A stretch of DNA of 29,288 nt, taken from a virus. The position numbers and the translations under genes are program-made. Position 1 is the stretch's first letter, and the number at the start of each line of letters is the position of its first letter. The notes below the pieces were generated by a model. That model searched no databases and was not told the DNA's origin. It saw nothing but the letters and a program-made list of their open reading frames with translations. The stretch lies in the IMG/VR virus record IMGVR_UViG_3300025276_000150, positions 1 through 29,288 of that record; one strand, 5' to 3'. This document shows, in pieces, positions 13,789-24,389 of this stretch.

Positions 13789-13800
13789 GGTGATAGCTCC

Positions 13801-14220
13801 TTACGCTACTGTTGGGATGTTGGAAAGTGGGTTGTAATCAAGTTGTAGGTTGACGTTGATGTCGTGCCAACCTGTCGGCATACATACATGAGTCTGCTTT
13901 CGTGTCAAGTCTACTAACACATCGCCTACTGACATGCTGGGATGTCTGCAAATATCATGGCTAGTTATAGTACCATTGCCATAGCCGTTGCCCTCATCAA
14001 AGATAGCCTCGAATGGAGTACGCAATCCATCGGTATCATCGTGCATAAGCATCGTAGGTTCATACATCTCATGGTATATGGCATCTGACACTGCATCCTC
14101 TACTGTGTCAGTAGTAGGCATACCTAATGCAAAGTATGCTTTGGCATACACACCGTTAGGCTTTGCATTGATGTGATCAATGTTTACGTTGTTACGTTGG
14201 TATATCATATAAGTAGCCAT
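13801..14220 (-). CDS. Hypothetical protein with YodL-like C-terminal segment (139 aa)
   Basis: A 139-residue protein. I chose the ATG at 14220 (MATYMIYQRNNVNIDHINAK) because it starts 1 nt after the stop of the preceding gene, with AAAGGA upstream. The segment ICRHPSMSVGDVLVDLTRKQ followed by a Gly-Trp turn resembles the HxSMSVGDVI signature found in YodL-like and polyvalent-protein domains of plasmids and phages. The middle is acidic (MLMHDDTDGL). The YodL resemblance is weak and from memory; function unknown. Confidence 0.6.
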   Translation of the reverse strand: MATYMIYQRNNVNIDHINAKPNGVYAKAYFALGMPTTDTVEDAVSDAIYHEMYEPTMLMHDDTDGLRTPFEAIFDEGNGYGNGTITSHDICRHPSMSVGDVLVDLTRKQTHVCMPTGWHDINVNLQLDYNPLSNIPTVA

Positions 14221-14221
14221 G

Positions 14222-14389
14222 TTAAGCTGTCCTTTTGCTTTTATAATTAGTGATGCCACGTTGCATCTTTACTTTAGTATCACGTGCCGTATCTCGGTCA
14301 CGTTTCCATTCATCTCGCTTTGGTTTAGGTCCAACGTTGGACTTAGCTTTAGTCGTTTTTATAAAGTTTTGCATATTGTATTGCATCAT
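14222..14389 (-). CDS. Small basic protein carrying the KSNVGP palindrome insert (55 aa)
   Basis: A 55-residue ORF starting MMQYNMQNFIKTTKAKSNVG and continuing with a very basic helix (PKPKRDEWKRDRDTARD, then KVKMQRGITNYKSKRTA). AAGGAC precedes the first ATG. It overlaps the 3' end of the 56-residue gene by 41 nt and ends 1 nt before the next gene. Residues 16-21 (KSNVGP) are encoded by copy A of the dispersed palindrome. The basic tail suggests nucleic-acid binding. The gene call rests on coupling on both sides and the shared insert. Confidence 0.6.
   Translation of the reverse strand: MMQYNMQNFIKTTKAKSNVGPKPKRDEWKRDRDTARDTKVKMQRGITNYKSKRTA
14324..14347 (+). repeat. Dispersed palindrome copy A (perfect, inside a gene)
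   Basis: The core GTCCAACGTTGGAC (14329-14342) is a perfect 14-nt palindrome. Flanks extend the match to TTTAG on the left and TTAGC on the right. On the minus strand it is read in frame within the 55-residue ORF as KSNVGP. Confidence 0.9.
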
Positions 14390-14519
14390 GTTTGTCCTTA
14401 CTCCTGTTACGTTTAGCCTTGCTACCCTTCTTAGGCAGCACTACCTGTGGTGACTTGCGCTCTTGCAACATAGCCTTTGCCACAGGATTTACAACCCCCA
14501 CAGATATCTTTTTAGCCAT
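14349..14519 (-). CDS. Small basic hypothetical protein (56 aa)
   Basis: A 56-residue basic protein starting MAKKISVGVVNPVAKAMLQE and including VVLPKKGSKAKRNRSKDKHD. I chose the ATG at 14519, which overlaps the end of the 219-residue gene by 8 nt, over a longer frame from 14531. Similar small proteins with a PKKGxxxKR core occur in marine phages (recollection, not a search). No function known; possibly binds nucleic acid because of its charge. Confidence 0.65.
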   Translation of the reverse strand: MAKKISVGVVNPVAKAMLQERKSPQVVLPKKGSKAKRNRSKDKHDAIQYAKLYKND

Positions 14520-15171
14520 GTTCAAATCCATATGTTACACATTCTACGTGGAACCTAGACACTACGTCACCAGTATCTAAGGCACGATTGGCACGATTGC
14601 CAGCTACATGGTGGCACCAACTGTCCCACCAATACTCTGCTGAGGTTACATGATCCGGTGCAATTGTCTTACTACGTAGTGCATAGCATAACTGAATATA
14701 ATCTGCTATCTTGCGGCGGATGGTATGTTCCTTAGCTTTAAGATTAAGCTTCACGGCACTGTCAGGTATATCAAATCTCTTGAGATTGTGACTGTCTAAA
14801 CAGGCAGTGTTGAACCCAAGGCATTGAGCAAAGAATGCAGCCTTGACCATACCCAAGTTAGGTACATCGGCAAACAGTCGTATGATCTCTTGACAACCCA
14901 TAGGTGTATTGTAACCATAGGTGTCGGCAATGTGATACACCTTAGCGTATAGGTAATCTTTGTTGTGAATTAGGTATTCAAAACCTTCACGTTTTTTGCC
15001 CCACAAACAGTCGGCACCATTGCCATCCAGTTCAACCTTTCGCATAGCACCACGGACAGTGGATAAGCCAGCTTGTATTGTAAGCAATACGAATAGGCCA
15101 GTGTTTACCAAGGCATCTGGGCCACGCCATTTCACAAAGCCTTTGATCTCATTTACATCACGTTGATACAT
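14512..15171 (-). CDS. Helix-hairpin-helix (HhH-GPD-like) protein
   Basis: A 219-residue mostly helical protein with ACGGAG upstream. The central segment IRLFADVPNLGMVKAAFFAQ followed by CLGFNTACLDSHNLKRF (about 100-134) resembles the helix-hairpin-helix plus following Asp region of HhH-GPD base-excision glycosylases, with VPNLGMVKA as hairpin and D126 near the catalytic-Asp position. Cysteines of a glycosylase 4Fe-4S loop are not present. It might bind or repair DNA, but activity is inference. Its message begins right behind palindrome copy B and is in frame with the 72-residue ORF before it. Confidence 0.6.
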   Translation of the reverse strand: MYQRDVNEIKGFVKWRGPDALVNTGLFVLLTIQAGLSTVRGAMRKVELDGNGADCLWGKKREGFEYLIHNKDYLYAKVYHIADTYGYNTPMGCQEIIRLFADVPNLGMVKAAFFAQCLGFNTACLDSHNLKRFDIPDSAVKLNLKAKEHTIRRKIADYIQLCYALRSKTIAPDHVTSAEYWWDSWCHHVAGNRANRALDTGDVVSRFHVECVTYGFEHG

Positions 15172-15189
15172 TGTATTTAACTCCGTTAA

Positions 15190-15213
15190 TTTAGGTCCAA
15201 CATTGGACTAAGC
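15190..15213 (+). repeat. Dispersed palindrome copy B (junction between genes)
   Basis: The core GTCCAACATTGGAC (15195-15208) differs from copy A at one central base. It lies at the end of the 72-residue ORF, whose TAG stop overlaps it, and just upstream of the ribosome binding site of the next gene. The triplet that is AAG in coding copies is TAG here. Confidence 0.9.
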
Positions 15214-15426
15214 AAACATTTCATTCCATTCGGCAGGTGTAACACCTGTCATAAGGAACTCACGTTCATCGGCATCCAACTGTGGGAATGCATCTTGGGC
15301 TAAGGTTCCACCTTTCCAAGCCATGTACTGTGGCATAGTAAAGTCCAACACCATAGTGTTAGATTTGCCAGACAGGCTAGACTTCTTAGTCACTTCCATG
15401 CCGCTATTCAATTCCAAAATAACCAT
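15208..15426 (-). CDS. Hypothetical protein (72 aa) ending in a palindrome-encoded amber stop
   Basis: A 72-residue protein starting MVILELNSGMEVTKKSSLSG and ending EREFLMTGVTPAEWNEMFA, with TGGAG before the ATG and a promoter-like sequence 34 nt upstream. The stop codon TAG is part of palindrome copy B. After the stop, the frame stays open for 12 codons up to the ATG of the downstream 219-residue gene, so readthrough would fuse the two. No family recognised. Confidence 0.65.
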   Translation of the reverse strand: MVILELNSGMEVTKKSSLSGKSNTMVLDFTMPQYMAWKGGTLAQDAFPQLDADEREFLMTGVTPAEWNEMFA

Positions 15427-15459
15427 TTCGTATTCTCCATTGTTACTGTCTATACATGT

Positions 15460-15487
15460 TATATAAACACTTTCACTAAAGTATCAA
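15460..15487 (-). promoter_or_regulatory. Candidate internal leftward promoter
   Basis: TTGATA (15487-15482) and TATATA (15465-15460) are 16 nt apart on the minus strand, in the 88-nt gap before the 72-residue ORF. The gap also holds an AACACTT/AAGTGTT inverted repeat over the spacer, which could be an operator. Confidence 0.45.
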
Positions 15488-15514
15488 GTGTTAATATAAC
15501 TGTAAGACTAGTAT

Positions 15515-15715
15515 TCATTTAGTGTCTAGCCACCCAGTGTCTTGCCGCCATTCAACTAAGTCATCATTGTGGTCATATACTTTGTATATATTAGGTCCAA
15601 CATTGGACTTAGCTGACTTCCTAGCCTCACATAGACGTGCCTGCAATTCCTGCAAACGTGTCTGTCGAGGTGTCGGCATAGCTGTAGCTATTGTATTATG
15701 TTGAATGTATTTCAT
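15515..15715 (-). CDS. Small protein with KSNVGP palindrome insert (66 aa)
   Basis: A 66-residue protein. The first half is a basic helix (TRLQELQARLCEARKSA), then residues 36-41 (KSNVGP) encoded by palindrome copy C, then an acidic C-terminus (VYDHNDDLVEWRQDTGWLD). AAAGG lies upstream of the ATG, partly inside a TAACCT-ttc-AGGTTA hairpin that could control translation. The insert separates two segments of opposite charge, which fits a linker. No family recognised. Confidence 0.65.
   Translation of the reverse strand: MKYIQHNTIATAMPTPRQTRLQELQARLCEARKSAKSNVGPNIYKVYDHNDDLVEWRQDTGWLDTK
15574..15613 (+). repeat. Dispersed palindrome copy C with adjoining ATATAC hairpin (inside a gene)
   Basis: The core GTCCAACATTGGAC spans 15595-15608. 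A CATATAC-ttt-GTATAT hairpin lies 5 nt to its left (15574-15589). Copy C is in frame in the 66-residue ORF as KSNVGP. The hairpin plus palindrome pair recurs as copy E. Confidence 0.9.
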
Positions 15716-15720
15716 ATCAA

Positions 15721-15735
15721 TAACCTTTCAGGTTA
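15721..15735 (-). promoter_or_regulatory. Hairpin near the start of the 66-residue ORF
   Basis: TAACCT-ttc-AGGTTA forms a 6-bp stem with a 3-nt loop. On the minus strand the AAAGG translation signal lies partly in the stem, so the hairpin may limit initiation. Confidence 0.45.
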
Positions 15736-15745
15736 AAGTAACAGC

Positions 15746-16327
15746 TTACGCTGCTACCTTTGTTTCTGTTACCTCAGCTTCGCTGACTGTATCGACAGAC
15801 ATAAGCATCTCTGCTATGTCCAGCAGGTCAATGTCATTTGCTTTGCAAACTGCAACCAAGTGATCAAACACAAGCTGCTTGGTGACTACGATTGTTTCAC
15901 CTTCGGTGTTAGGTCCAACGTTGGACTTATCTTCTGTATCACCTTCGGTGGTTTCAGCCTCTGGCTTAGCTGGCTTCATTGCTTTCTGCAAAGCAGTCAA
16001 CGATGTGAAACCTCTTTTGCTTTCAGCAATAAACTCACGGCACTCTACTTCGTTTTCAACGAACCACATAGCTTCTGCTCTACGACGCTTATCAACTCCG
16101 TTGATGCTGCAATCTTTTAGCCTTTGGCTAGAGATACGTTCGGAGCCTTCGGCCTTCAGTTCAACCATAAGCTTTCCAAGCTTCATATCAAATCCATCGG
16201 ATTTAGTGTAAGCATCAAATCTAACCTTATCACCTTTGGTGATGGCTTTCCATTCTTTACCGATAACGGCACCGATCTCTTCGAGAGTATTGATTGCTGG
16301 TTTTGCTGTTGTTGTTGGAGTTTTCAT
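15746..16327 (-). CDS. First gene of the leftward operon; unknown, with KSNVGP insert (193 aa)
   Basis: A 193-residue protein with AAAGGAAG before the ATG; it is the first gene of the leftward arm. Residues 1-115 look like a folded helical domain (IGKEWKAITKGDKVRFDAY, then RISSQRLKDCSINGVDKRRR, then MWFVENEVECREFIAES), possibly DNA-binding. Next comes an acidic Glu/Thr-rich linker with KSNVGP near residue 135, encoded by palindrome copy D, and then a C-terminal helical region (TKQLVFDHLVAVCKANDIDL) with a Glu/Val/Thr tail. A leading position in the early operon would suit a regulator or host-takeover protein. No family recognised. Confidence 0.75.
   Translation of the reverse strand: MKTPTTTAKPAINTLEEIGAVIGKEWKAITKGDKVRFDAYTKSDGFDMKLGKLMVELKAEGSERISSQRLKDCSINGVDKRRRAEAMWFVENEVECREFIAESKRGFTSLTALQKAMKPAKPEAETTEGDTEDKSNVGPNTEGETIVVTKQLVFDHLVAVCKANDIDLLDIAEMLMSVDTVSEAEVTETKVAA
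15909..15931 (+). repeat. Dispersed palindrome copy D (perfect, inside a gene)
   Basis: The core GTCCAACGTTGGAC spans 15913-15926 and is a perfect palindrome. It encodes KSNVGP in frame inside the acidic linker of the 193-residue first gene of the leftward arm. Confidence 0.9.
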
Positions 16328-16361
16328 TGTGTTCTTCCTTTATCTATATTCTGTTTATATG

Positions 16362-16404
16362 AGAGAACATATATCTCTCACAAAGAAGTGAGATATATTT
16401 CTCT
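16362..16404 (-). promoter_or_regulatory. Long imperfect hairpin in the leader of the leftward operon
   Basis: The left arm AGAGAACATATATCTCTCAC (16362-16381) and the right arm GTGAGATATATTTCTCT (16388-16404) pair around a 6-nt loop. It lies 35-77 nt upstream of the first leftward start codon (16327), inside the expected 5' leader, so it may act as a transcript-stability or attenuation element or an operator. Confidence 0.7.
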
Positions 16405-16411
16405 TTATAAA

Positions 16412-16440
16412 CGAGTAGAATATAGTATAAGCCTTGTCAA
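16412..16440 (-). promoter_or_regulatory. Candidate promoter for the leftward arm
   Basis: A perfect TTGACA -35 (16440-16435 on the minus strand) is followed by 17 nt and a poor TACTCG -10; TATACT and TATATT also lie in the spacer. The site is about 85-115 nt upstream of the first leftward gene. The weak -10 lowers the confidence. Confidence 0.4.
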
Positions 16441-16494
16441 GTCGGTTTCTCACATGACCCGATCCTCTGACATGTCGTTTCCTGCGCCGTTGCA

Positions 16495-16513
16495 GTAATT
16501 ACTACATAATTAC
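16495..16513. repeat. Hairpin GTAATTA/TAATTAC
   Basis: Seven-bp perfect arms around a 5-nt loop (ctaca). It is one of the cluster of small hairpins in the non-coding region. Confidence 0.75.
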
Positions 16514-16582
16514 GAAACCCATGCGCCAAACTCATGCGAGGCTCGACACTTCGGTAGGCCACGATTGGTGTGGCATAATTGT

Positions 16583-16625
16583 CATATACTTTGTATATGG
16601 TATAGGTCCAACATTGGACTAAGCT
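16583..16625 (+). repeat. Dispersed palindrome copy E with adjoining hairpin (non-coding)
   Basis: The CATATAC-ttt-GTATATG hairpin (16583-16599) is followed by the palindrome GTCCAACATTGGAC (16606-16619), the same order as copy C. It lies in the divergent non-coding region and carries TAG in place of the AAG triplet, as copy B does. Confidence 0.9.
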
Positions 16626-16716
16626 GTCTCACCTTTGGTGCTGACATGTGCCGTGCTGTACGTACAATGACCATCGAAGATGGGGGGTAGGGTATTTATA
16701 TGCATCGGCACTGCAA

Positions 16717-16828
16717 CACACTCTTAGTGTGAAAATACTCCCTGTTCTATCACCATAAATGGTGGCAACTGATTGCATAACAGTTGTCGTAGACAAGTAA
16801 GTCACTGTTTATGCTCATACTTCGTATG
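16717..16828. repeat. Cluster of short perfect hairpins
   Basis: Within 112 nt are CACACT-ctt-AGTGTG (16717-16731), CACCAT-aa-ATGGTG (16751-16764), CAACTG-N9-CAGTTG (16766-16786), TTGTC-gta-GACAA (16784-16796) and CATAC-ttc-GTATG (16816-16828). Most loops are 2-3 nt. The density is far above that of the coding regions. Confidence 0.7.
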
Positions 16829-16906
16829 GTATGGTGGATGATGGCATCAATTGTTTTCTCACCGCAGCCCTGCAAGGCATTATGCATGACCACCCACACG
16901 TTGAGA

Positions 16907-16933
16907 GGGGACGGGCAGGGGCCAGTGGGGGGG
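16907..16933 (+). other. G-quadruplex motif
   Basis: Four G-runs (GGGG, GGG, GGGG and a seven-G run) are separated by loops of 2, 2 and 5 nt, which satisfies the standard G3+N1-7 pattern on the plus strand. It stands out in an otherwise AT-leaning region. Confidence 0.7.
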
Positions 16934-17097
16934 TGTACGTTAGTATATATGTACCTATACACAGATCAGGAAAATGGTACTGTTAACCACTATACACATA
17001 AGGTGGTTTACGTATATGTAGGGTGCTATACGTGATCACATACTACGATAAACAGGCAACACTAATCACATAATGTAATGCACTGTACGATTAGGGG

Positions 17098-17125
17098 TTG
17101 ACATATATTACAGAATGTGTAAAAC
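17098..17125 (+). promoter_or_regulatory. Candidate rightward promoter
   Basis: A perfect TTGACA (17098-17103) is followed by 16 nt and TAAAAC, a modest -10. It is in the AT-rich part of the divergent region, about 200 nt before the first rightward gene. No perfect -10 is present, so the confidence is moderate. Confidence 0.4.
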
Positions 17126-17153
17126 TATATATGTTAGGTGTTAGGGTAGGGTC

Positions 17154-17238
17154 ACGTACAGTGATACATATACATGTATATATACTTACTATTAATTATA
17201 CTTAACTATATATACATATAAGTATATACGTACAGTGA
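17154..17238. repeat. Direct repeat ACGTACAGTGA and ATATACATGTATAT palindrome
   Basis: ACGTACAGTGA occurs at 17154-17164 and 17228-17238. Between them ATATACATGTATAT (17168-17181) is a perfect 14-nt palindrome in a run of alternating TA steps. The layout suits operator or unwinding sites. Confidence 0.6.
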
Positions 17239-17319
17239 CTACACTTACATGTACTAATCCGTAAGTGACAATTGCCTTTAGGCGAGAAATTTGTATTAAA
17301 TGATAATTAAGTATTGACA

Positions 17320-17523
17320 ATGGCGAAGAAATCAGTAAAACTATATACAGACAATGTTCTTGAGGAGTTCTATAATCATGTAATTGATGGTAGACTTGAG
17401 AACTTACATATCCCCCATAGCGATGTATTCTACGTGAGGACTGCAGTGGAAGCCCACTACGGTACTCCATTTACTTTAGAACATGTAGAGTGGGCTATGC
17501 GTAAAGAAGGATGGACTGACTAG
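17320..17523 (+). CDS. First gene of the rightward arm; hypothetical (67 aa)
   Basis: A 67-residue protein starting MAKKSVKLYTDNVLEEFYNH. The middle (GRLENLHIPHSDVFYVRTAV) and C-terminus (GTPFTLEHVEWAMRKEGW) suggest alternating helices and a possible small DNA-binding fold. I see no clear Shine-Dalgarno site, only AT-rich sequence (ATTAAGTATTGACA), so start strength is uncertain. It overlaps the next gene by 1 nt. The nearest promoter-like sequence is about 220 nt upstream. Function unknown. Confidence 0.7.
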   Translation: MAKKSVKLYTDNVLEEFYNHVIDGRLENLHIPHSDVFYVRTAVEAHYGTPFTLEHVEWAMRKEGWTD

Positions 17524-22948: not shown

Positions 22949-24389
22949 AGCACCAAAGATTATATATGATGAGTTTGCTCCAGTAGAAGAGCAACATAAT
23001 ATTATCTTTAAGCCTAACGTTGGCCCACAGACAGACTTCCTTGCGGCAAGTGAGCGTGAGGTCTTATATGGAGGCAGTGCAGGGGGTGGTAAGTCATACG
23101 CCATGCTTGCTGACCCGTTACGCTTTATGGGCCACCCAGCCTTCTCAGGATTGCTCCTACGGCATACTACGGAAGAACTACGAGAACTTATCTTTAAGTC
23201 TCAAGAAATGTATCCTAAGATTTGGCCCGGTATCAAATGGTCAGAACGTAAGATGCAGTGGACTGCACCCTCTGGTGCTAGACTGTGGATGTCCTACCTA
23301 GATAAAGAAGATGACGTACTTCGATACCAAGGTTTAGCATTTAGCTGGATAGGATTTGATGAGTTAACTCAATGGCCTAGCCCCTTCGCTTGGAACTACA
23401 TGAGGAGTCGCTTGAGGTCTACAGCTAAAGACCTTCCTGTTTACATGAGGGCAACTACTAACCCCGGTGGCAGAGGACACCATTGGGTTAAAAAAATGTT
23501 TATTGACCCTGCTGCCTATGGTGTATCTTTTGACGCTACAGACATTGAAACTACAGAAGTACTACGCTACCCCGCAGGACATGAGAAGGCAGGTAAGGCG
23601 CTATTCAAACGTAAGTTTATTCCTGCACGATTAAGAGATAACCCATACCTAGCAGAGCAAGGTGACTATGAAGCAATGCTTCTATCACTACCAGAGCAAC
23701 AACGTAGGCAACTACTAGACGGTGATTGGGACATTAAAGAAGGCGCAGCCTTTACAGAGTTTGATCGTAACATTCACGTAGTCGAACCATTTAAGATACC
23801 ATCTAACTGGGTTAAGTTTAGGGCATGTGACTATGGGTACGGAAGTAAGTCAGGCGTAGTCTGGTTTGCAGTATCCCCAAGTGAACAGCTAGTAGTGTAT
23901 CGTGAGTTATACGTAACTAAAGTCTTAGCTGCCGATCTTGCAGAGATGGTACTTGACTTAGAGGCGGAAGATGGAAACATTAAATATGGTGTTTTGGATA
24001 GCTCTCTTTGGCATAAGCGTGGTGATACTGGTCCTTCACTGGCTGAACAGATGATACAGAAGGGATGCCGCTGGCGTCCATCTGACAGGTCTAAAGGTTC
24101 ACGTGTAGCAGGTAAGAACGAAATACACAGACGCTTACAGGTAGATGAGTTTACGGAGGAACCTAGACTTATCTTCTTTAACAACTGCACTAACATGGTA
24201 GCACAGTTACCCGCACTACCTATCGACAAAAGAAACCCAGAGGACATTGACACAACCTCAGAAGACCACTTGTATGATGCGCTAAGGTATGGTATCATGT
24301 CAAGACCAAGATTTAGTATATGGGACTATGACCCTAACAACGGACCATCGAATAGCATGAGAGTAGCTGATGCTACCTTTGGATATTAA
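22797..24389 (+). CDS. Terminase large subunit
   Basis: A 530-residue packaging motor. Walker A is GGSAGGGKS (92-100), Walker B is SWIGFDE (183-189, D188/E189), and the nuclease acidic residues are D345 (RACDYG), D401 (GVLDSS) and D494 (HLYDALRYG). The domain begins near residue 55 (IIYDEFAPVEEQHNIIFKPN). The start at 22797 is not certain: a second ATG at 22848 is possible. No start exists after the end of the upstream HTH gene, so some overlap is required. The N-terminal ~50 residues are basic and low-complexity. Confidence 0.95.
   Translation: MSDKEKTKLEAYADGQTMPKRQSPRRKKSSAQGSVQSKARTKKTPKKQQPEAPKIIYDEFAPVEEQHNIIFKPNVGPQTDFLAASEREVLYGGSAGGGKSYAMLADPLRFMGHPAFSGLLLRHTTEELRELIFKSQEMYPKIWPGIKWSERKMQWTAPSGARLWMSYLDKEDDVLRYQGLAFSWIGFDELTQWPSPFAWNYMRSRLRSTAKDLPVYMRATTNPGGRGHHWVKKMFIDPAAYGVSFDATDIETTEVLRYPAGHEKAGKALFKRKFIPARLRDNPYLAEQGDYEAMLLSLPEQQRRQLLDGDWDIKEGAAFTEFDRNIHVVEPFKIPSNWVKFRACDYGYGSKSGVVWFAVSPSEQLVVYRELYVTKVLAADLAEMVLDLEAEDGNIKYGVLDSSLWHKRGDTGPSLAEQMIQKGCRWRPSDRSKGSRVAGKNEIHRRLQVDEFTEEPRLIFFNNCTNMVAQLPALPIDKRNPEDIDTTSEDHLYDALRYGIMSRPRFSIWDYDPNNGPSNSMRVADATFGY

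Follow-up and report, generated by a model that had tools for sequence, protein, structure and literature searches.

Why should one short palindrome, GTCCAAC(A/G)TTGGAC, recur five times around the start of a phage early operon, in some places between genes and in others inside unrelated ones where it is always read in the same frame? The sequence analysed here (the window) comes from a virus record and is 29,288 bases long. Its family-A DNA polymerase and gene content place it among the HMO-2011-type marine phages: the polymerase is 80% identical to that of the Roseobacter phage CRP-345, 78% to that of CRP-1 and 68% to that of the Puniceispirillum phage HMO-2011. According to a genomic survey whose text mentions neither promoters nor palindromes, HMO-2011-type phages are dominant in the ocean and broadly distributed there (PMC9038755). 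The genes of the window form two arms, leftward from 16327 and rightward from 17314, and a control region of ~1 kb (16328–17313) separates the divergent early (minus-strand) and other (plus-strand) arms.

Five copies of a palindrome in the early region

The copies start at 14329, 15195, 15595, 15913 and 16606, with start-to-start spacings of 318–866 bp, and a search of the window allowing up to two mismatches returned no sixth; the five positions given in the original prediction are exact. With up to three mismatches allowed there are 17 matches in the window, compared with a mean of 3.7 and a maximum of 11 in 100 shuffles, and the palindrome count was equalled in 0/100. A repeat finder recovered a single family from the window, consisting of five 28-nt units with a conserved TAG-core-TWA pattern. 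All five copies share the sense of the minus strand, which is also the local gene direction. Two near matches look like ordinary peptides: the one at 23012 (KPNVGP in the terminase) has a different sequence with three mismatches, and the one at 2792 falls within another coding motif.

Three copies lie inside genes, where the frame encoding KSNVGP, pointed out earlier, is confirmed. Site A (14329–14342, GTCCAACGTTGGAC) is within a 55-aa ORF (14222–14389, minus), site C (15595–15608) is within a 66-aa ORF (15515–15715, minus) whose family includes 18 site-bearing relatives, and site D (15913–15926) is within the gene for gp01 (15746–16327, minus), a 193-aa protein encoded by the first gene of the leftward early operon. 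In gp01 the peptide occupies residues 134–139 of a predicted disordered linker (pLDDT <50 at 125–145). The reading of sites B and E on the minus strand is identical except that TAG takes the place of AAG; site B (15195–15208), between a 72-aa ORF and the start of a 219-aa ORF, thereby supplies from its flank the stop codon of the former. Site E (16606–16619) belongs to the control region and precedes the gp01 start codon by 293 bp. Copies C (15570–15614) and E (16580–16625) also have a longer stretch in common, TCATATACTTTGTATAT plus the dyad, which suggests that one was duplicated from the other.

The dyad in related phages

Relatives carry a 14-bp dyad, GTCCAAYRTTGGAC, at matching places but with different flanks. 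Both CRP-345 and CRP-1 have copies in their control region, within the first gene and ahead of the next large gene, with the flanks AAACC/AAAGT/AGACT as opposed to TAA/TAG in the window; CRP-345 alone has a further copy (2132; flanks AAAGT/AGTCT) in the short gene matching copy A, in the same frame. HMO-2011 has five AGTCCG-ACAG-CGGACT variants in the corresponding region, one of them reversed. A comparable repeated dyad is absent from CRP-2, CRP-207, CRP-603, CRP-3 and the 50 kb of HTVC033P that were read. Over whole records the dyads are virtually confined to the surroundings of the early operon start, and a CRP-345 match at 14469 may be a protein-sequence coincidence, as it lies in a larger gene well outside that area whose CRP-1 counterpart has a one-mismatch version. 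When control regions are aligned, both six-base arms are invariant and the rest of the stretch is variable; the arms of site E are fully invariant within variable surroundings. An extended 20-base element was found in 46 stretches of viral contigs and had no match in the genomes of 84,980 bacterial and archaeal species.

gp01 as the candidate binding protein

Orthologues of gp01 occur in the site-bearing CRP-345, CRP-1 and HMO-2011, and none was detected in the site-less CRP-2, CRP-207, CRP-603, CRP-3 and HTVC033P. Because a few other genes largely share this distribution, the presence pattern alone is weak, and loci were therefore fetched with the gp01 protein only. In the best 80 of the 198 loci obtained, some of which come from contigs already seen, dyads were present in 80/80, either repeated or, where the locus was short, single. 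Sixty-seven of these 80 have GTCCAANNTTGGAC (A-type), 10 have only GTCCG....CGGAC (G-type) and three have CCCAA-NN-TTGGG; A-type sites number 270 in this set versus 0 in shuffled sequence.

The predicted structure of gp01 contains a triple of helices (80–91, 93–102 and 110–117; pLDDT >90 over 80–117), the disordered linker partly encoded by site D, and then a small C-terminal helical domain. The protein has no significant match in Pfam or PHROG and none, by sequence or fold, in the PDB, and no relatives were found in the 84,980 cellular species. One viral fold match was significant (S4S2E1, 205 aa, no name given) and is perhaps HMO-2011 gp74. Since gp01 matches no known DNA-binding family or fold, we infer its DNA-binding role from covariation. 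An integrase was also considered as the binder and is unlikely, as integrases are present in the site-less CRP-2, CRP-207 and CRP-603 too. CRP-3, which lacks gp01, has been reported to be able to integrate (PMC9038755), and lysogeny in the group therefore does not always require gp01.

Concerted switching of the sites and predicted recognition residues

At the nucleotide level the dyad co-evolves with gp01. Several lineages have replaced the dyad by GTCCGAYRTCGGAC at every copy or almost every copy. In L177, a locus ~89% identical to the window over the region, all five sites are changed at both arms (A5 to G and T10 to C) and their neighbours are the same; in its relative L178, four of the five are changed and the control-region site is still A-type. 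Site A has become GTCCGACATCGGAC and site C has likewise switched in both loci, and the position of site B reads GTCCGATGTCGGAC in L177. The coding copies of the two loci read SDVG or SDIG, the SDVG of L177 being a consequence of the in-place switch of all five DNA sites.

Among 84 typed gp01 sequences, the columns most strongly linked to the G-type were 111, 115, 118, 117 and 119 (p = 4e-9, 2e-8, 7e-8, 8e-5 and 2e-4, values that ignore relatedness). Codons 110–119 (15971–16000, minus) encode the predicted recognition helix and its end, and residues 111, 115 and 118, which co-vary with dyad base 5/10, lie at the last helix of the predicted three-helix DNA-binding unit or directly behind it. 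When G-type proteins were compared with related A-type ones in eight pairs hand-picked from the tree, residue 111 changes from T to S in 8/8, residue 118 to A, N or Y in 8/8, and residue 115 to K, which the window protein already has, in 7/8; between A-type proteins, residue 111 differs in 5% of pairs. On the strongly supported branches of the partly resolved tree, S111 tracks the switch in five pairs, opposes it in none and is unchanged in three (sign test p 0.06). The six sequences that combine S111 with R115 are accompanied by some mixed A/G half-sites, and gp01 of HMO-2011 aligns poorly in the recognition-helix stretch. Residue 80, which is K or R in 71/71 A-type rows scored and has lost its basic character in both typed CCCAA-type proteins, is a possible second specificity contact. 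The gp01 relatives with CCCAA-NN-TTGGG dyads are L236, L237 and L248.

A probable set of operators

We propose that the palindromes are two-fold symmetric operators, probably bound by a dimer of gp01 that limits early transcription, and consider this the probable explanation given the sequence comparisons and the predicted structure. Synteny, the dyads in all 80 of the best loci among 198 and covariation give strong support to the alternative suggested at the outset, namely a site for protein binding that is dispersed and possibly recognised by the early 193-residue protein. Recognition of the dyad by gp01 is strongly supported; direct binding, the dimer and the limitation of early transcription are steps that we infer. 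Residues 111, 115 and 118 at the last helix would read dyad positions 5/10 as A:T or G:C. One setting of the sites is the control region; the others, over the opening few kb of the early operon, are short gaps ~20 nt ahead of start codons and coding segments of a tolerant kind. As gp01 accumulates, it would bind the sites and limit early transcription, its own included, as a roadblock or an autorepressor comparable to stoperators. If so, the early operon of HMO-2011-type phages would have a master DNA-binding protein with its own set of sites and a specificity code that can be read, together with a natural example of the concerted rewiring of a whole operator set, including sites inside genes. 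A broader reading, to which we give slightly less than even chances, is that gp01 is the founder of a DNA-binding family without a recognised fold, which through dispersed operators would control the early operon of an abundant marine phage group, with concerted switching and the three-residue code marking immunity-like specificity groups.

By analogy, the nearest precedent would be the stoperator system, although we do not claim membership. Stoperators of the cluster A mycobacteriophages (L5, Bxb1 and TipsytheTRex) are multiple short sites in short intergenic gaps and operators (PMC6550527, PMC9283540); their motifs differ between related phages and track the cognate repressor (PMC6550527), and they are asymmetric and orientation-dependent (PMC9283540). 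The present dyads are likewise short and repeated, with a genome-specific motif common to all copies and with variation that tracks a protein. However, where L5 has more than 20 13-bp stoperators per genome, bound by a monomeric immunity repressor of the kind that blocks transcription elongation, the dyads are palindromic, number about 4–8 and extend no further than the opening few kb of the early operon. Unlike the one-orientation 13-bp site, the dyad has a palindromic core, and the same flank pair occurs both ways round in 12/66 loci. The proposed binder also differs from the stoperator repressors in being the product of the first early gene and in having no detected relation to them.

Less likely readings: an initiator, an RNA hairpin or a centromere

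The main functional rival is an initiator of the lambda O type, in which gp01 would start replication and the dyads would be its origin sites. In lambda, the iterons encode the interdomain linker of O. These origin iterons are internal to the O gene and are bound by the N-terminal half of the protein (PMC4488673). The dyad within the linker of gp01, close to a large control region, recalls this arrangement in that a site lies inside the gene of its proposed binder. Lambda iterons are clustered, whereas the dyads are single and hundreds of bases apart over 2–6 kb (318–866 bp in the window), mostly in other genes or gaps and with no cluster next to an AT-rich block, and many stand at a set distance before start codons; we therefore regard an initiator as unlikely.

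A further rival is an RNA hairpin in the early mRNA (5-bp stem, AYRU loop), bound by gp01 or cut by an RNase, which we judge improbable. Pairing would survive the switch from A-U to G-C, half-site mixtures are mostly G..T over A..C in the transcript sense (11 to 2), as G-U pairs would allow, and many dyads are ~20 nt before start codons. Yet the first flanking position could pair in only 112/236 sites, the same flank pair occurs in both orientations in 12/66 loci, as expected of duplex half-sites, HMO-2011 has one copy reversed, and the changes follow three residues at a single predicted recognition helix. DNA is accordingly favoured over RNA as the acting form of the dyad.

Dispersed inverted repeats inside genes are also known from the N15 prophage, a precedent for dyads that serve as a dispersed centromere bound by a ParB-like partition protein. 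This is very improbable here, as gp01 has no ParB match in Pfam or PHROG and a non-systematic look recognised no partition ATPase.

Reading frame and the KSNVGP peptide

The shared frame had been taken as a sign of a protein-compatible mobile palindrome, on the argument that a binding site should favour no frame. This argument fails, because stops close one frame, SNVG(P/Q) is benign in linkers and one family uses two frames. With the flank type of the window, stops close the VQRW frame and leave SNVG and PTLD; over 369 sites, raw ORF counts, which include ORFs that are not genes, are 160 SNVG, 43 PTLD and 18 VQRW. Within a single protein family, five loci (L082, L128, L163, L241 and L245) have the site in the PTLD frame and three (L124, L214 and L217) have it in the SNVG frame close to the C-terminus, indicating that the SNVG frame is preferred by tolerance and not required. 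In-frame SNVG is encoded by TCC-AAY-GTT-GGA in 80/81 distinct stretches, which argues that selection acts on the DNA.

Rickettsia palindromic elements are mobile sequences of ~150 bp in bacterial genomes (PMC10969869), and the dyad resembles them as a palindromic repeat in one frame within several unrelated genes. Some gp01 relatives lack the dyad segment (e.g. L074 and L133), in linkers too divergent to define insertion ends. Whereas those elements are about 100–150 bp and mobile, the dyad is 14–20 bp, phage-only, at corresponding positions with lineage-specific flanks, and co-evolving with a protein. A Rickettsia-like mobile element was thus rejected on size, fixed positions, absence from the cellular genomes searched and the concerted in-place switch that follows the predicted gp01 recognition helix, and we give it hardly any credence; of the original prediction, the binding-site alternative is supported, and the mobile-palindrome lead and the frame argument are not. 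That KSNVGP is an ordinary conserved peptide motif, recurring as it does in the gp01 and 55-aa protein families, is next to impossible: a conserved peptide over varied DNA, the pattern expected of such a motif, was not seen in the 81 SNVG stretches with their near-fixed codons, the peptide turns into SDVG when the DNA site switches, and non-coding copies are conserved equally well. As part of the operator reading, KSNVGP is probably a by-product of the dyad in an open frame.

Other elements of the control region

Promoters assigned by consensus in the window scored no better than in shuffles, and no known RNA family reached its gathering score within 13800–17400. A second palindrome, TGTGATCAC(A), is present in the control region at 17032–17040 and adjoins the dyad in CRP-345 and CRP-1 (L052 with L058 and L053 with L059). 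Its core, TGTGATCACA, occurs four times within 120 bp in CRP-603 (54104–54213), a phage with neither the dyad nor gp01. A hairpin, TCTCAC...GTGAGA (16376–16393), lies ~50 nt before the gp01 start codon and is kept in several relatives in the control-region alignment. Finally, the blocks GTGGTTAACA...TTTTCCTGATCTGTGT and CAACTG...CAGTTG, within 16684–17500, are strongly conserved across HMO-2011-type phages and are possibly an origin or promoters.
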